The position numbers were made by a program, and so were the translations under genes. A stretch of 64,000 nucleotides of DNA. Origin: Flavobacteriia bacterium. Lineage in GTDB: Bacteria; Bacteroidota; Bacteroidia; Flavobacteriales; Weeksellaceae. The DNA lies in assembly GCA_019455045.1 (NCBI GenBank), contig JACFND010000003.1:1-64000 (forward strand), read 5' to 3'. Below are positions 42,204 to 47,685 of this stretch, in pieces. The notes below the pieces were generated by a model that did not search any database, had not been told where the DNA came from, and saw only the letters and a list, made by a program, of their open reading frames with translations. Each line of letters opens with the position of its first letter. The first letter of the stretch is position 1.

Positions 42204-44606
42204 TTATCGGTCAGCCAGTCTGAGAATGTCACCAAAGACTCCTCTTGCGGTTACACCGGCACCCGCACCCGCACCCTGAATCACAATCGGATGTTCGCCG
42301 TAACTCTCGGTATAAATTTCAAAAATACTGTCAGAACCTTTCAGCTGACCAAGCGCACTGTCGGACGGAACTTCAACCAGACGGGTTTCAAGCAGTCCTT
42401 TCTCCTGCTGCAGATCACCCGAAAGTTCACCGACATATCTCAATACCATTCCCGCTTCAAGGTTTTTTTTGACAAGACCAAAATAATAATCGAGACCTTC
42501 CTTCTTTTCAAGAAATTCTTTGGTCGAAATCTGCTGCAATTCTTTTGGAATCAGATTCTGAATCCTGATTTCATCCCATTCATTTTTCAAATCCAGTTCT
42601 CTGGCAAGTACAAGAAGCTTCCGGCCGACATCGTTTCCGGACAGATCCTCTCTCGGATCGGGTTCTGTAAATCCGAGTTCGATCGCATCATCCAAAATCT
42701 CGCTGAGAGCAGCTTCATCCTTTGAAAAACGATTGAAAATATAACTCAGACTGCCCGAAAAAACACCTCTGATCCTGGTGATGTTTTCACCCGAAAGATG
42801 CAGCAGTTTGATGGTGTCAATCAGCGGAAGACCAGCGCCCACATTGGTTTCGTACAGATATTCCTTATGATTTAATTTCAAACTTTCTCTCAGCTTTTTG
42901 TAAAATTCATAATCAACCGTATTTGCGATTTTGTTTGATGAAATCAAATCAAAACCGTTTTCTATTAGACGGATATAATTTTTTGTAAATGCTTTTGAAG
43001 CAGTATTGTCAACCGCAATCAGATTTTCGAGATGATGTTCGTCCGAAAACCGGATGATGTCTTCAATTGTGTAATTTCCTCCTTCAATTTCAATTCTTGA
43101 TTTCCAGTCTTTTCCGATTCCGTTTTCGTCCAGCAATATCTTTTTTGAATTTGCAATTCCAAAAATATTCAGCCTGATGTTTTTCTTTTTTTCAATTTTT
43201 TCAACCGATTCCAGAATCTGACCGATCAGCGCATTGCCCACGTTTCCGTGTCCGAACAAAACCAGATTGACCGTTTTTGAAATTCCGAAAATCTGTCCGT
43301 GAATCACATTCAAAGCTTTTTTCGACTGTTCTTTTTCAACCACCAGACTGACGTTTTTTCCGGTCACCGCATTGCTGAAAAGTATCGGAATGATTTTATT
43401 TTTGACCAGAGCAGAATATGCTTTGTCAAAACTGCTCAAATCCTGACCGACGATTGAAATTACCGCAATGTCTTTTCGAATCGAAATCCGATCGACATCA
43501 CCGCTGTCAAAATCTTTTTTAAATTCATTTTGCAGTGCATTGGCGGCTTTCTCAGCATCTTTCTCGGAAACGATAAAGCCGATTCCTCTTTCTGAAGTCC
43601 CCTGTGCAATCAGACCGACACTCACATTTTCTTTTGCCAAAACACCAAAAATCCTTCCGTCGATTCCCGATTTCCCAAGCAGTCCCTGACCGTTCAGCCG
43701 GATCAGTGCAACTTCGGACTGAAGCGAAAGCGAACGGATTCCTTCCTGAGTCGGTTTTTCAGAAATCAGGGTTCCTTTTTCGTCCGGTTTCAGCGTGTTC
43801 AAAATCCGAATCGGAATTTTGTTTTCAACCAGCGGCTGAATCGTTTTTGAATGAAGAATCGAAGCACCGAAATTTGCAAGCTCATTCGCATCTTCATAAC
43901 TCAGCCGGTCGATTTTCCGGGAATTTCTCACCCAATCCGGGTTGGCTGTAAAAATGCCGTCCACATGGGTGTAATTCCGCAATTCTTTTGCTTTTACAAA
44001 TTTGGCAAGCAGCGCAGCCGAATAATTGCTGCCGCTTCTGCCGAGCGTCACCGTATCTCCTTTCTGGGTCGATGCTATAAATCCGCTGACAACCGGAATT
44101 GAATTTTTGTCAAATTTTGAAAACAGTTCTTTGGTTTTGAGTGCTGATTTCTGTTCATCCGCAACTGCATTTCCGTAATTTTCATCTGCCAGAAAGATCT
44201 TTCGGCTGTCAACCGGAATCGCGTTGATATTTCTTTTTGAAAACTGTTCCGAAAGGACTTTGATCGAAATCAGCTCGCCCTGCGCCAAAACCAGATCTCT
44301 GATTTTCGGACTGTAATCTGCAATCAGAGAAACTCCTTCAAACAGTTTTTGAAGCAGTCCGAATTCTTCTGTCAGATCGGTTTCCAAATGATACGGCCGG
44401 CTTTTGAATTCTTCAAATGCAGCAACATAACCGTTTTGTTTTTTTGCTTTTTCAAAGATTTTTTCAAGCGTATCGGTTGTATCTCCGATGGCAGAAACCA
44501 CCACCGCAATTTTTTCATTTTTTGATTGATTCCGGACGATCCGGATTGCATTATCAAAACCATGATCAGACGCAAGTGATCTTCCTCCAAATTTGATGAT
44601 TTTCAT
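42204..44606 (-). CDS. thrA: bifunctional aspartokinase / homoserine dehydrogenase
   Basis: Carries the first and third steps from aspartate to homoserine. 800 aa: aspartokinase domain (1-290, starting KFGGRSLAS; the usual KFGGTS Thr is Arg here), tandem ACT regulatory domains (about 300-455), then homoserine dehydrogenase with NAD-binding GHGNVGNALIGQILE (about 454) and catalytic GVFSGSLSYIFNRF...GFTEPDPREDLSGNDVGRKLLVLAREL. Third gene of metY-metX-thrA, 29 bases after metX. Threonine may inhibit it through the ACT domains (family knowledge); transcription should depend on the leader attenuators at 46983-47302. Confidence 0.97.
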   Translation of the reverse strand: MKIIKFGGRSLASDHGFDNAIRIVRNQSKNEKIAVVVSAIGDTTDTLEKIFEKAKKQNGYVAAFEEFKSRPYHLETDLTEEFGLLQKLFEGVSLIADYSPKIRDLVLAQGELISIKVLSEQFSKRNINAIPVDSRKIFLADENYGNAVADEQKSALKTKELFSKFDKNSIPVVSGFIASTQKGDTVTLGRSGSNYSAALLAKFVKAKELRNYTHVDGIFTANPDWVRNSRKIDRLSYEDANELANFGASILHSKTIQPLVENKIPIRILNTLKPDEKGTLISEKPTQEGIRSLSLQSEVALIRLNGQGLLGKSGIDGRIFGVLAKENVSVGLIAQGTSERGIGFIVSEKDAEKAANALQNEFKKDFDSGDVDRISIRKDIAVISIVGQDLSSFDKAYSALVKNKIIPILFSNAVTGKNVSLVVEKEQSKKALNVIHGQIFGISKTVNLVLFGHGNVGNALIGQILESVEKIEKKKNIRLNIFGIANSKKILLDENGIGKDWKSRIEIEGGNYTIEDIIRFSDEHHLENLIAVDNTASKAFTKNYIRLIENGFDLISSNKIANTVDYEFYKKLRESLKLNHKEYLYETNVGAGLPLIDTIKLLHLSGENITRIRGVFSGSLSYIFNRFSKDEAALSEILDDAIELGFTEPDPREDLSGNDVGRKLLVLARELDLKNEWDEIRIQNLIPKELQQISTKEFLEKKEGLDYYFGLVKKNLEAGMVLRYVGELSGDLQQEKGLLETRLVEVPSDSALGQLKGSDSIFEIYTESYGEHPIVIQGAGAGAGVTARGVFGDILRLADR

Positions 44607-44635: not shown

Positions 44636-45661
44636 TCATGCCGAATGCAGTGCTGCGATCCTGGTTTTCCTGATTTCAGAAATTTTAGTTCCGGCTGAAA
44701 AAATTTCTTTCAAAATCGATGACAGTTGTTCATATTCGATCAGAAATGCATCATGACCGTGAACCGATGAAATCTCGTGATAACCGATATTGTATTTATT
44801 TCTTCTGATCAGTCGGTAGATTTCCTTCTGTTCTTCTTTTGTAAACATATAATCGGTTTCGACCGCAACCAGATGGATTTTGGACTGACTGACTTTTGAA
44901 AAATTTAAAATTTCTTCTTCGGTCAGATCCTCACCGATGGTTTTCAGCAGATGATTCATCAGTTTGTAGGCATCCAATGAAAAGCGGTTTTTCAATGCTT
45001 TGCCGTGATAATTCAACCAGCTTTCAACCGCATATTGATTTTCTTCCGGTTGAAATTTTCGATTGAATTTCAGATCAAAAGAAACCGGTGTCCGATAAAG
45101 AAGCATTGCATGTTTTCTTGCGGTTTCAATCGGATTTTCAGAATGATTCAGAATTTCATCCTGAACCAGTACATTTCCGATCAGCCAATCCGAAGCCTTC
45201 AGACCGCAGGCAACCGGAATCAGATTTTCGATTGCATCCGGTTTTTGAAAAGCCATCTCCCAGGCAATGCTTCCGCCCAGACTTCCACCAATGGCAGCAA
45301 ACAAATGATCGATTCCCAATTCATCAAGCGCTTTCCAATACAGGTCCGCAATGACTTTCACGGTCAGCAGCCGATAATCTGCATTCAGTCTGACCGGATC
45401 GGATCCAAAACCGTTTCCGGGCACATCAAATGCAATTACCGTATAATTTTCCAAACCGATTGTTTTTCCTTCACCGATCAGTTCTTTCCACCAGCCGTTC
45501 GGGCCGGCTGCTCCGCTGTTTCCGGTCAGTGCATGATTGACAAGCACCACCGGCGCAGTATGGAGCGGCCGTCCAAAAAGCTGAAAACTCAAATCAAAAT
45601 CATAAAAATTATCGTCAGACAGCCTGTAATTCCTGACTGTCACCGTTCTCAAACGATCCAT
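44636..45661 (-). CDS. metX: homoserine O-acetyltransferase-like alpha/beta hydrolase
   Basis: Activates homoserine for sulfhydrylation by transfer of an acyl group from acyl-CoA. 341 aa with VVLVNHALTGNSGA (oxyanion), GNGFGSDPVR, nucleophile elbow GGSLGGSIAWEMAF, Asp in AVETDYMF and catalytic His in SVHGHDAFLIEYEQL. The conserved start is near YRLSDDNFYDFDLSFQLFG. I chose ATG 45661; ATG 45691 is possible but would enlarge the overlap with metY from 47 to 77 bases. Between metY and thrA, so the pathway assignment is firm even though the acyl donor is not proven. Confidence 0.9.
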   Translation of the reverse strand: MDRLRTVTVRNYRLSDDNFYDFDLSFQLFGRPLHTAPVVLVNHALTGNSGAAGPNGWWKELIGEGKTIGLENYTVIAFDVPGNGFGSDPVRLNADYRLLTVKVIADLYWKALDELGIDHLFAAIGGSLGGSIAWEMAFQKPDAIENLIPVACGLKASDWLIGNVLVQDEILNHSENPIETARKHAMLLYRTPVSFDLKFNRKFQPEENQYAVESWLNYHGKALKNRFSLDAYKLMNHLLKTIGEDLTEEEILNFSKVSQSKIHLVAVETDYMFTKEEQKEIYRLIRRNKYNIGYHEISSVHGHDAFLIEYEQLSSILKEIFSAGTKISEIRKTRIAALHSA

Positions 45662-46946
45662 CTGTCTGTGTTTCCAATTGTTCAAATACATTTCTCAAAT
45701 CATCAATCAAATCCTCCACATCTTCAAGCCCTACAGACAACCGGATCAGATCGGGTGTTACGCCAGTCGATCGCTGACTTTCCTCTGAAAGCTGCTGATG
45801 GGTGGTCGAAGCGGGATGGATAATCAGCGATTTTGAATCGCCGAAGTTGGCAAGCAGTGAAAACAGTCTGGCTTCATCCACCACTTTTTTGGCAGCGGCA
45901 TAACCGCCTTTCAAACCAAAAGTCACGATACCGCTTTGTCCGTTGGGAAGAAAATGCTGAGCCGCTTCATAATAGCTGCTCGATTTCAATCCGGGATAAT
46001 TCACCCAGGCAACCTCGTCCCGGCTTTCAAGCCATTCGGCAAGTTTGAGCGCATTTTCACTGTGTTTTTGAATTCTGATCGGCAATGTTTCCAATCCCTG
46101 AATAATCTGAAAGGAATTAAAAGGACTCAGTGCGCCGCCAAAATCTCTCAAACCTTCGATTCTGACTTTTGCGATAAATGCCGCATTTCCGAGTGCTTCA
46201 TGATAAACCAGACCGTGATATCCGGGTGAAGGTTCGGTAAATTCAGGAAATTTTCCGTTGCTCCAGTCAAATTTTCCGGCATCGATGATTACGCCTCCCA
46301 AAGCGGTTCCGTTGCCCGAAATGTATTTGGTCAGCGAATGGATGACAATATCGGCTCCGTGTTCGATCGGTCTGAACAGATAAGGCGAAAGCGCAGTATT
46401 GTCAACGATCAGCGGGATTCTGAACTCATGTGCAATTTCTGCAATCGCCCTTACATTCAGCAGATCGAGTTTCGGATTGCCCAAAGTTTCAGCAAAAATC
46501 GCTCTGGTGTTTTCACGAATCGAAGCCCTCAATGCTTTCAGATTATCCGGATCGACAAAACCGGTTTCGATACCGAATCTCGGCAAGGTCACGCTGAGCA
46601 GATTGTAGGTTCCGCCGTACAGACTGTTTGAAGAAACGATGTGGTCGCCGGCTCTCAAAAGCGTCAGCAGAGTTGTTGAAACCGCAGAGGCACCCGATGC
46701 CGTGGCAACTGCACCGATACCGCCTTCAAGTGCGGCAAGCCGCTGTTCAAGTACATCAGTCGTCGGATTGTTGAGCCGGGTGTAGATATAGCCCGGAATT
46801 GAAAGATTAAAAACATCTGCGGCATGATCCGCATTTTCAAACACATAAGAAACGGTCTGATAGATCGGCACAGCTCTGCTTCCTGCTGTTGCTTTGATGT
46901 CGTGGCCCGAATGAAGGGCGCTGGTTGAAAATTTTAAATTACTCAT
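45615..46946 (-). CDS. metY: O-acetylhomoserine sulfhydrylase (PLP)
   Basis: Makes homocysteine from O-acylhomoserine and sulfide. 443 aa Cys/Met-metabolism PLP enzyme: FSTSALHSGHD start, YTRLNNPTTDVLEQRLAALEGG, SNSLYGGTYNL, PLP-binding Lys207 in HSLTKYISGNGTALGG, and HPASTTHQQLS near the end. First gene of the operon, 36 bases after the second leader terminator; its 3' end overlaps metX. Confidence 0.97.
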   Translation of the reverse strand: MSNLKFSTSALHSGHDIKATAGSRAVPIYQTVSYVFENADHAADVFNLSIPGYIYTRLNNPTTDVLEQRLAALEGGIGAVATASGASAVSTTLLTLLRAGDHIVSSNSLYGGTYNLLSVTLPRFGIETGFVDPDNLKALRASIRENTRAIFAETLGNPKLDLLNVRAIAEIAHEFRIPLIVDNTALSPYLFRPIEHGADIVIHSLTKYISGNGTALGGVIIDAGKFDWSNGKFPEFTEPSPGYHGLVYHEALGNAAFIAKVRIEGLRDFGGALSPFNSFQIIQGLETLPIRIQKHSENALKLAEWLESRDEVAWVNYPGLKSSSYYEAAQHFLPNGQSGIVTFGLKGGYAAAKKVVDEARLFSLLANFGDSKSLIIHPASTTHQQLSEESQRSTGVTPDLIRLSVGLEDVEDLIDDLRNVFEQLETQTDGSFENGDSQELQAV

Positions 46947-46982: not shown

Positions 46983-47017
46983 AAAAAAAGTCCCTCCGGT
47001 TTTTGCCGAAAGGACTT
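46983..47017 (-). terminator. attenuator 2: terminator before metY
   Basis: On the minus strand 12 pairs (47006-47017 with 46988-46999, two G-U) close a CAAAAA loop and are followed by seven T (46983-46989). A competing antiterminator pairs 47057-47076 with 47002-47022: TTTGCC:GGCAAA, AAAG:CTTT, CAAGT:ACTTG, 15 pairs. It shares the terminator's 5' arm, so the two folds exclude each other. Confidence 0.9.
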
Positions 47018-47050
47018 CAAGTTTTGCTGTTTGTTTATTTTTTTACAGAC

Positions 47051-47140
47051 TCATTCACTTGCTGACTTTAGGCAAAGTTCGGGCGGGCGCATGCACATGC
47101 ACATCATCATTTTGCCGGTTTTACAAGTTTTGAAAGTCAT
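47051..47140 (-). CDS. leader peptide 2, Met/Cys-rich (MMMCMCM)
   Basis: 29-codon open frame: starts MTFKTCKTGK, then MMMCMCM at residues 11-17, then RPPELCLKSASE and TGA. Ten of 29 residues are Met or Cys. The antiterminator strand (47057-47076) lies in codons 22-28, just behind the Met/Cys run. A ribosome stalled there for lack of Met-tRNA or Cys-tRNA would leave it free to pair; a ribosome reaching the TGA would cover it. Too regular to be chance, but the peptide itself is inferred, not shown. Confidence 0.85.
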   Translation of the reverse strand: MTFKTCKTGKMMMCMCMRPPELCLKSASE

Positions 47141-47179
47141 TATTTCTTTCTGTTTTTTTATATTTTAATTCTTATCCAC

Positions 47180-47209
47180 AAAAAAAGCCCCTGCGTTGGC
47201 AGGGGCTTT
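47180..47209 (-). terminator. attenuator 1: upstream terminator
   Basis: Perfect 10-bp stem AAAGCCCCTG/CAGGGGCTTT (47184-47193 with 47200-47209), 6-base loop, seven T on the minus strand (47180-47186). Its 5' arm (47199-47207) can instead pair 9 of 9 with 47247-47255 in leader peptide 1. Confidence 0.9.
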
Positions 47210-47233
47210 CTGTATATCATCTGATTTTTCAAT

Positions 47234-47302
47234 TTAAACCAAAAGCAGCCCCTGCGCGTTTCCGCACATCATCATCTGCATTTTGTTAAATTTTGAATTC
47301 AT
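47234..47302 (-). CDS. leader peptide 1, Met-rich (MQMMMC)
   Basis: 22-codon frame: MNSKFNK, then MQMMMC at residues 8-13, then GNAQGLLLV and TAA. The segment coding for QGL (GCAGGGGCT on the minus strand, 47247-47255) is the exact complement of the terminator 5' arm, giving a 9-bp antiterminator. It lies about 48 bases after the -7 box at 47350-47357. The frame stays open further upstream, but that part overlaps the promoter. Confidence 0.8.
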   Translation of the reverse strand: MNSKFNKMQMMMCGNAQGLLLV

Positions 47303-47349
47303 TTTTTCGTTTTGAACGGACAAAGATTGAAAATTAATTTTTGATTTTG

Positions 47350-47357
47350 CAAATTTA
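47350..47357 (-). promoter_or_regulatory. -7 box TAAATTTG of the metY-metX-thrA operon
   Basis: Perfect TAnnTTTG on the minus strand, 47 bases before leader peptide 1. No second box is seen between terminator 1 and leader peptide 2, so one transcript appears to pass both attenuators. Confidence 0.6.
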
Positions 47358-47571: not shown

Positions 47572-47613
47572 GGAAATTATTGATTGCAAACAGATTTTGA
47601 AGCTGGAAGTAGA

Positions 47614-47685
47614 GCGGGAAACGGGACTCGAACCCGCAACATTCAGCTTGGAAGGCTGACGCTCTACCAATTGAGCTATTCCCGC
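47614..47685 (-). tRNA. tRNA-Gly (anticodon TCC)
   Basis: 72 bases on the minus strand. The 7-bp acceptor stem GCGGGAA/TTCCCGC is perfect; the D-arm AGCTCAATTGGTAGAGC, anticodon loop CTTCCAA (TCC) and T-arm GGGTTCGAGTCCC all fit. The CCA end is not encoded. Confidence 0.97.

Follow-up and report, generated by a model that had tools for sequence, protein, structure and literature searches.

A predicted methionine-codon transcription attenuator, the first of two in tandem before metY in a Weeksellaceae genome

Background

The closest counterparts of the element analysed here (unit 1) are the trp, his, phe, leu, thr, and ilv attenuators of Enterobacteria, in which a short ORF with cognate codons is combined with mutually exclusive 2:3 and 3:4 helices, a small upstream 1:2 hairpin, and a leader stop codon positioned so that strand 2 is masked. 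Unit 1 resembles them in these respects, with a putative equivalent of the 1:2 hairpin. Unlike them, however, it carries Met (and Cys) codons, has a very short 1:2 hairpin and no Shine-Dalgarno sequence, stands in series with another unit, and belongs to a host from Bacteroidota.

Tandem attenuators have their nearest precedent in the Salmonella mgtCBR leader, where two leader ORFs are likewise each tied to an alternative structure (PMC3641672). In that system the units respond to two different signals, ATP and proline, and its authors regard it as a singular example (PMC3641672). In contrast, both units described here have Met/Cys codons and intrinsic terminators of their own, with biosynthesis as the target.

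As for Bacteroidota, PMC9723704 reports strong hints of attenuation by leader peptides ahead of amino-acid operons in Flavobacterium psychrophilum, a member of the same bacterial family. Its main text names no Met leader, tandem, or strand model, and does not use the word methionine. SAM-I and SAM-II riboswitches (RF00162 and RF01726) resemble unit 1 in controlling met genes, and do so in the same genomes, but they bind SAM and have no match in the analysed DNA. Another possible precedent, the Xanthomonas met 5'UTR (PMC6230763), was set aside: its effect is attributed mainly to translation control, and its description mentions no leader peptide. Compared with the open-access literature, unit 1 is new in its specificity for Met/Cys, in forming a conserved tandem with a unit of the same type, and in its occurrence across Bacteroidota.

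The locus

The window is the 64,000-nt stretch at positions 1-64,000 of contig JACFND010000003.1 from Flavobacteriia bacterium (Weeksellaceae), assembly GCA_019455045.1. The order on its minus strand is unit 1, unit 2, metY, a metX-like gene, and a gene for bifunctional aspartate kinase/homoserine dehydrogenase:

47613-47685: tRNA gene, upstream of unit 1
45615-46946, minus strand: metY, O-acetylhomoserine aminocarboxypropyltransferase, 443 aa (TIGR01326), no internal Met and no Cys
44636-45691, minus strand: metX-like homoserine O-acetyltransferase; best NCBIfam matches are MetX, below the curated cut-off
42204-44606, minus strand: thrA, bifunctional aspartate kinase/homoserine dehydrogenase, 800 aa, one internal Met and no Cys

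Internal Met and Cys are absent from 71 of 80 MetY homologues as well as from the protein in the window, as expected of an enzyme synthesised under Met starvation.

At the curated gathering score, an Rfam scan of the window reports tRNA only, with no SAM-I, SAM-II, or other cis-regulatory family. The element belongs to no Rfam family, and a search of open-access main texts found no Met leader in Bacteroidota. The two-part pattern of the element occurs once in the 2.59 Mb genome. No further copies were found there; the weak matches of covariance models R1 and R2 proved to be ordinary gene-end terminators. Model R1 also matches some gene-end terminators, and covariance-model E-values for the window are circular, because the window itself is one row in each alignment.

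Structure of unit 1

The original prediction described a 22-codon frame with MQMMMC followed by a perfect terminator, with leader codons that both complement the terminator 5' arm and mimic its 3' arm. The frame is confirmed at 47302-47234 on the minus strand, and the unit consists of the following features:

47234-47302, minus strand: leader ORF of 22 codons, MNSKFNKMQMMMCGNAQGLLLV, reading MNSKFNKMQMMMCGNAQGLLLV stop; the leader family is conserved (alignment A2)
47267-47275, minus strand: Met codons 10-12, ATGATGATG, the last two being the putative stall codons
47254-47267, minus strand: small hairpin P1 (strands 1:2), GUGCG-GAAA-CGCGC, overlapping the first 2 nt of the mimic
47247-47255, minus strand: mimic or antiterminator strand (strand 2), GCAGGGGCT, from 9-mer scan, folding, covariation, and geometry
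47199-47210, minus strand: terminator 5' arm (strand 3), GAAAGCCCCTGC, from 9-mer scan, folding, and covariation
47180-47194, minus strand: terminator 3' arm with U tract (strand 4), GCAGGGGCTTT, from 9-mer scan, folding, and covariation

The sequence GCAGGGGCT or its complement stands in the leader (47247-47255), in the 5' arm (47199-47207, as complement), and in the 3' arm (47186-47194). All 3 copies in the 64 kb thus lie in unit 1, while 0.15 are expected, and 3 copies were obtained in 0 of 100 shuffles. The predicted 9 of 9 complementarity between leader and 5' arm holds, but its assignment to the QGL codons is one base off: the 9-mer comprises the last base of the Ala16 codon followed by CAG GGG CT, and the QGL codons occupy 47254-47246.

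The terminator lies 24 nt 3' of the leader ORF and has 12-nt arms (11 bp), a 4-nt loop, and seven U. Its folding energy is −21 to −24 kcal/mol, with z = −5.3 against shuffles of 47175-47225. The hairpin is near-perfect rather than perfect. A simple terminator scan did not list it, probably owing to a narrow stem/tail rule, and folding recovers it. When leader and 5' arm are folded without the 3' arm, a 9-bp antiterminator is formed (−22.3 kcal/mol, z = −4.2). The P1 hairpin, an element absent from the earlier description, would complete the 1:2/2:3/3:4 layout as the fourth conserved element.

Covariation among relatives

Computational comparison of relatives reveals the strands and their covariation, a fixed geometry, a constant tandem order, and a single predicted promoter position. 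According to alignment A2 (40 unit 1 homologues including the window), 97% of the cells of the terminator helix are paired, and both sides have changed at 7 of its 11 pairs; in the helix of mimic and 5' arm, 80% of the cells are paired. Mimic pair 59:122 is AU in 25 relatives, CG in 6, and GC in 6, and terminator pair 122:139 changes to match. The same 5'-arm base pairs with both partners, which constitutes three-strand covariation. For the mimic helix, a single column supplies most of the two-sided covariation. The outer two pairs of this helix are unpaired in 22 and 29 of the 40 relatives, which leaves a common core of ~6 bp, compared with 9 bp in the window.

Pairing energies point the same way. 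The mean mimic-arm duplex is −12.4 kcal/mol for own arms and −9.8 kcal/mol, i.e., 2.6 weaker, for arms swapped between species; none of 2000 permutations was as strong as own pairing in this test, in which species kinship is not removed. A weaker inner helix (CTATTG with CAATAx), which is not evident in the window, also favours its own partner. Under synonymous leader recoding, the mimic duplex falls on average from −12.4 to −5.75 kcal/mol and P1 from −5.1 to −2.4 kcal/mol. P1 is 85% paired in relatives and overlaps strand 2 by only ~2 nt. The copied motif GCAGRG stands in two reading frames (26 versus 14 leaders) and yields SAE, PQR, or QGL, so selection acts on the RNA and not on the peptide.

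Covariation analysis, which had been proposed along with the original prediction, is positive for mimic:5'-arm pairing, terminator pairing, and position-specific triple changes (A-U/C-G/G-C). It supports the predicted competition among three strands, and comparison with relatives strongly supports reading unit 1 as a putative Met-stalling attenuator.

Leader codons and ribosome geometry

Met makes up 19% and Cys 9% of leader residues, compared with 1.9% and 0.5% in the background proteins of the window. Met-Met occupies the putative stall site in 38 of the 40 aligned leaders, and homologues nearly always have Met (and Cys) codons where a stalled ribosome would release the mimic. In 35 of 40 leaders, 14-15 nt separate the last Met codon from the mimic; in 28 of 40, the stop codon follows the mimic after 18-19 nt.

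The ribosome footprint was assumed to reach from 16 nt upstream to 12 nt downstream, counted from the first A-site base. If the A site held the last Met codon, the edge of the ribosome would fall ~2 nt short of the mimic and the 5' strand of P1 would be covered; at the stop codon, the mimic itself would lie under the ribosome. When the transcript is folded by partition function as it stands before emergence of the 3' arm, with the footprint masked, the result is mean antiterminator probabilities of 0.81 (stalled at last Met), 0.08 (at stop), and 0.40 (no ribosome), an outcome partly forced by the geometry. The no-ribosome value is near 0 in about a third of relatives and 1.00 in the window.

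Promoter and unit 2

The transcript start had been predicted near 47343. The following element moves it by ~27 nt, to a likely position near 47316, as deduced from the flavobacterial −33/−7 consensus:

47321-47352, minus strand: promoter-like −33/−7 element, with TTG at 47352-47350, a gap of 21 nt, and AATCTTTG at 47328-47321 (one mismatch to TAnnTTTG)

The −7 consensus TAnnTTTG is reported for F. psychrophilum (PMC9723704). The strict form, TTG-N17-23-TAnnTTTG, is found upstream of unit 1 leaders in 16 of 39 relatives, in most of which the −7 element lies ~17-22 nt before the leader ATG. Directly before unit 2 leaders it occurs in 0 of 55 relatives. Unit 2 itself has the following features:

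47051-47140, minus strand: leader ORF MTFKTCKTGKMMMCMCMRPPELCLKSASE with Met/Cys codons, from covariance-model and ORF tables
47066-47076, minus strand: antiterminator strand TTTGCCTAAAG, 10 of 11 nt complementary to CTTTCGGCAAA (47012-47002)
46985-47018, minus strand: terminator, from terminator scan and folding

Since CTTTCGGCAAA comprises the 5' arm and loop of the unit 2 terminator, the antiterminator uses the loop too. It is conserved in alignments A3 and A4, with mostly one-sided variation.

Given a promoter consensus before unit 1 in part of the relatives and none before unit 2, the units probably act in series, with one transcript running through both.

Distribution of the units

The comparison set consists of 80 metY-anchored loci from named genomes, mostly Flavobacteriaceae, which were scanned with covariance models. 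Within 1 kb upstream of metY, unit 1 is present in 40 of 80 loci, unit 2 in 56, and both in 34. As for the remainder, 6 loci have unit 1 only, 22 have unit 2 only, and 18 have neither (e.g., Arenibacter and Winogradskyella). In all 34 double loci unit 1 precedes unit 2 on the same strand, which agrees with its description as the upstream one of two. At the metY leader of F. psychrophilum the model likewise finds both units (L060, 2160-2282 and 2344-2459). The same two-leader arrangement precedes metY at L204, which comes from another family of the class and lies outside the order.

The same TonB-receptor-type gene stands directly upstream in 12 of the inspected loci with unit 2 only (L034, L035, L036, L039, L043, L048, L050, L052, L055, L057, L059, and L065). 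At L168 (3775-10551) the order is unit 1, this TonB-dependent receptor-like gene, and metY. A gene of this type between unit 1 and metY implies that the units are separable modules, and its occurrence there in a Flavobacterium clade suggests a Met-regulated receptor.

The sister species of the window (G004) keeps both units. It differs at 5 of the 123 nt of unit 1 and at 6 of the 148 nt of unit 2, compared with 10 changes in the 48-nt spacer between them. The corresponding metY is missing from other members of the genus to which the window belongs. MetY identity to the next proteins in its own family is ~53%, and to those of Flavobacterium and Myroides 73-77%. Horizontal transfer of the operon together with its switch is possible.

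Outside the order there are 4 matches with E ≤ 1e-5. One is a gene-end terminator and one the end of a repeat-coding gene; the other two are genuine-looking Met/Cys leaders.

Related leaders and stacked regulators

According to model R1 and genomic context, related leaders precede metY, metX, cysE/cysK, an OsmC-like gene that clusters with metH, and the APS/PAPS reductase cluster. The leader at this last cluster (L179 439-569) is Met/Cys-rich and has a terminator, and so does a leader before a gene judged by eye to be sulfite-reductase-like (L202, around 1500). At L176 (449-578), an Asn-rich leader, MILRSNNFSANNNLNNSIRSGRLLH, and a terminator stand directly before asnA (aspartate-ammonia ligase), which makes this leader a candidate asparagine attenuator.

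Upstream of metX in Flavobacterium, a SAM-I riboswitch comes after unit-1-like and unit-2-like elements whose Met runs are mostly gone (L166 4027-4912, L167, L168, L172, and L181), apparently an arrangement of stacked regulators. Truncation or frameshift of this metX was considered and rejected, the gene being open throughout. At L164, L166, L167, L168, L170, L172, L177, and L045, the strand opposite unit 1 carries a SAM-II riboswitch nearby, so divergent met genes may be SAM-controlled.

Proposed mechanism and alternative explanations

The features found in unit 1 include end-product codons clustered in the leader, an intrinsic terminator, and an antiterminator sharing its 5' arm; in silico, a stall frees strand 2 and the stop position masks it, and two units stand before one operon. 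Most of the testable defining features of classical attenuators are thus present, and the mechanism would work in the same way. Unit 1 is very likely a transcription attenuator of the leader-peptide type, the first of two units before metY-metX-thrA, and would respond to how well elongator tRNA-Met, and probably tRNA-Cys, is charged. With Met plentiful, the ribosome would reach the stop codon and cover the mimic, and the terminator would form. With charged Met-tRNA scarce, it would stall at Met codons 11/12, covering the 5' strand of P1 and ending just before the mimic, which could then pair with the terminator 5' arm. RNA polymerase would continue to unit 2, where the test recurs. We infer translation of the ORF, stalling, termination, and Met dependence, as well as co-transcription of both units and a multiplicative effect of the two.

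Because Met starts every protein, a Met-codon sensor raises the question of how it behaves when initiation fails. A tentative extension, which we consider rather unlikely, regards the tandem as a two-stage sensor separating elongator from initiator Met supply. Moderate shortage of Met-tRNA would stall ribosomes at the Met run and open both terminators, while severe shortage would block leader initiation, so that both P1 and the terminator could fold and the operon would be shut off. Units in series would multiply the response, and the starvation signal would have to be read twice.

Among the alternatives to Met sensing in series, the one that survives best, though it is improbable, is a real attenuator that senses mainly Cys, or that is independent of unit 2, with a promoter and targets of its own. 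The share of Cys in the leaders is consistent with it, as are the unit 1 element before cysE/cysK at L164, cysteine-rich versions before APS/PAPS reductase, and the TonB-type gene between the units in the Flavobacterium clade. However, Met-Met and not Cys occupies the stall site, and the units of the window are only ~40 nt apart (unit 1 terminator to unit 2 start), with no promoter consensus between them.

Peptide-specific arrest in the style of TnaC or ErmL, with the nascent leader responding to Met, SAM, or another small molecule, is considerably harder to sustain and appears very unlikely. Some of the peptide, NMCxMM and often a W after it, is conserved, but the residues after the stall site are wholly different (SAE, PQR, QGL, YTE, SCG) and the upstream ones vary; what is retained is limited to Met/Cys codons and the RNA strands. 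The asnA leader, moreover, has Asn codons at the corresponding place, which fits codon sensing.

A riboswitch, i.e., an aptamer binding SAM or Met directly with an incidental ORF, could be suspected from the SAM-I and SAM-II control of neighbouring met genes in Flavobacterium, but is highly implausible: no Rfam family matches near the element of the window, nothing like an aptamer core is conserved beyond the codons, strands 1-4, and their spacing, and the relatives keep the start of the ORF, its Met codons, and the place of its stop. Finally, a plain terminator with a chance ORF, which ends an upstream transcript (e.g., that of the tRNA at 47613-47685) or makes a small RNA, the match being coincidental, would fit the gene-end terminators matched by R1 and R2 elsewhere in the genome and can practically be dismissed in view of the third arm copy inside a Met-rich ORF, the covariation, the fixed geometry, and the conserved position before metY.

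Implications

With three competing strands that have co-varied across dozens of relatives, the attenuation switch most likely turns the operon on at Met shortage. If this is true, Met and Cys would join the amino acids sensed by leader-peptide attenuation, and Bacteroidota would gain a defined sulfur-amino-acid regulatory RNA beside the SAM riboswitches. The tandem would also provide a conserved natural case of two same-type attenuators in series, in which the benefit of doubling is directly testable.
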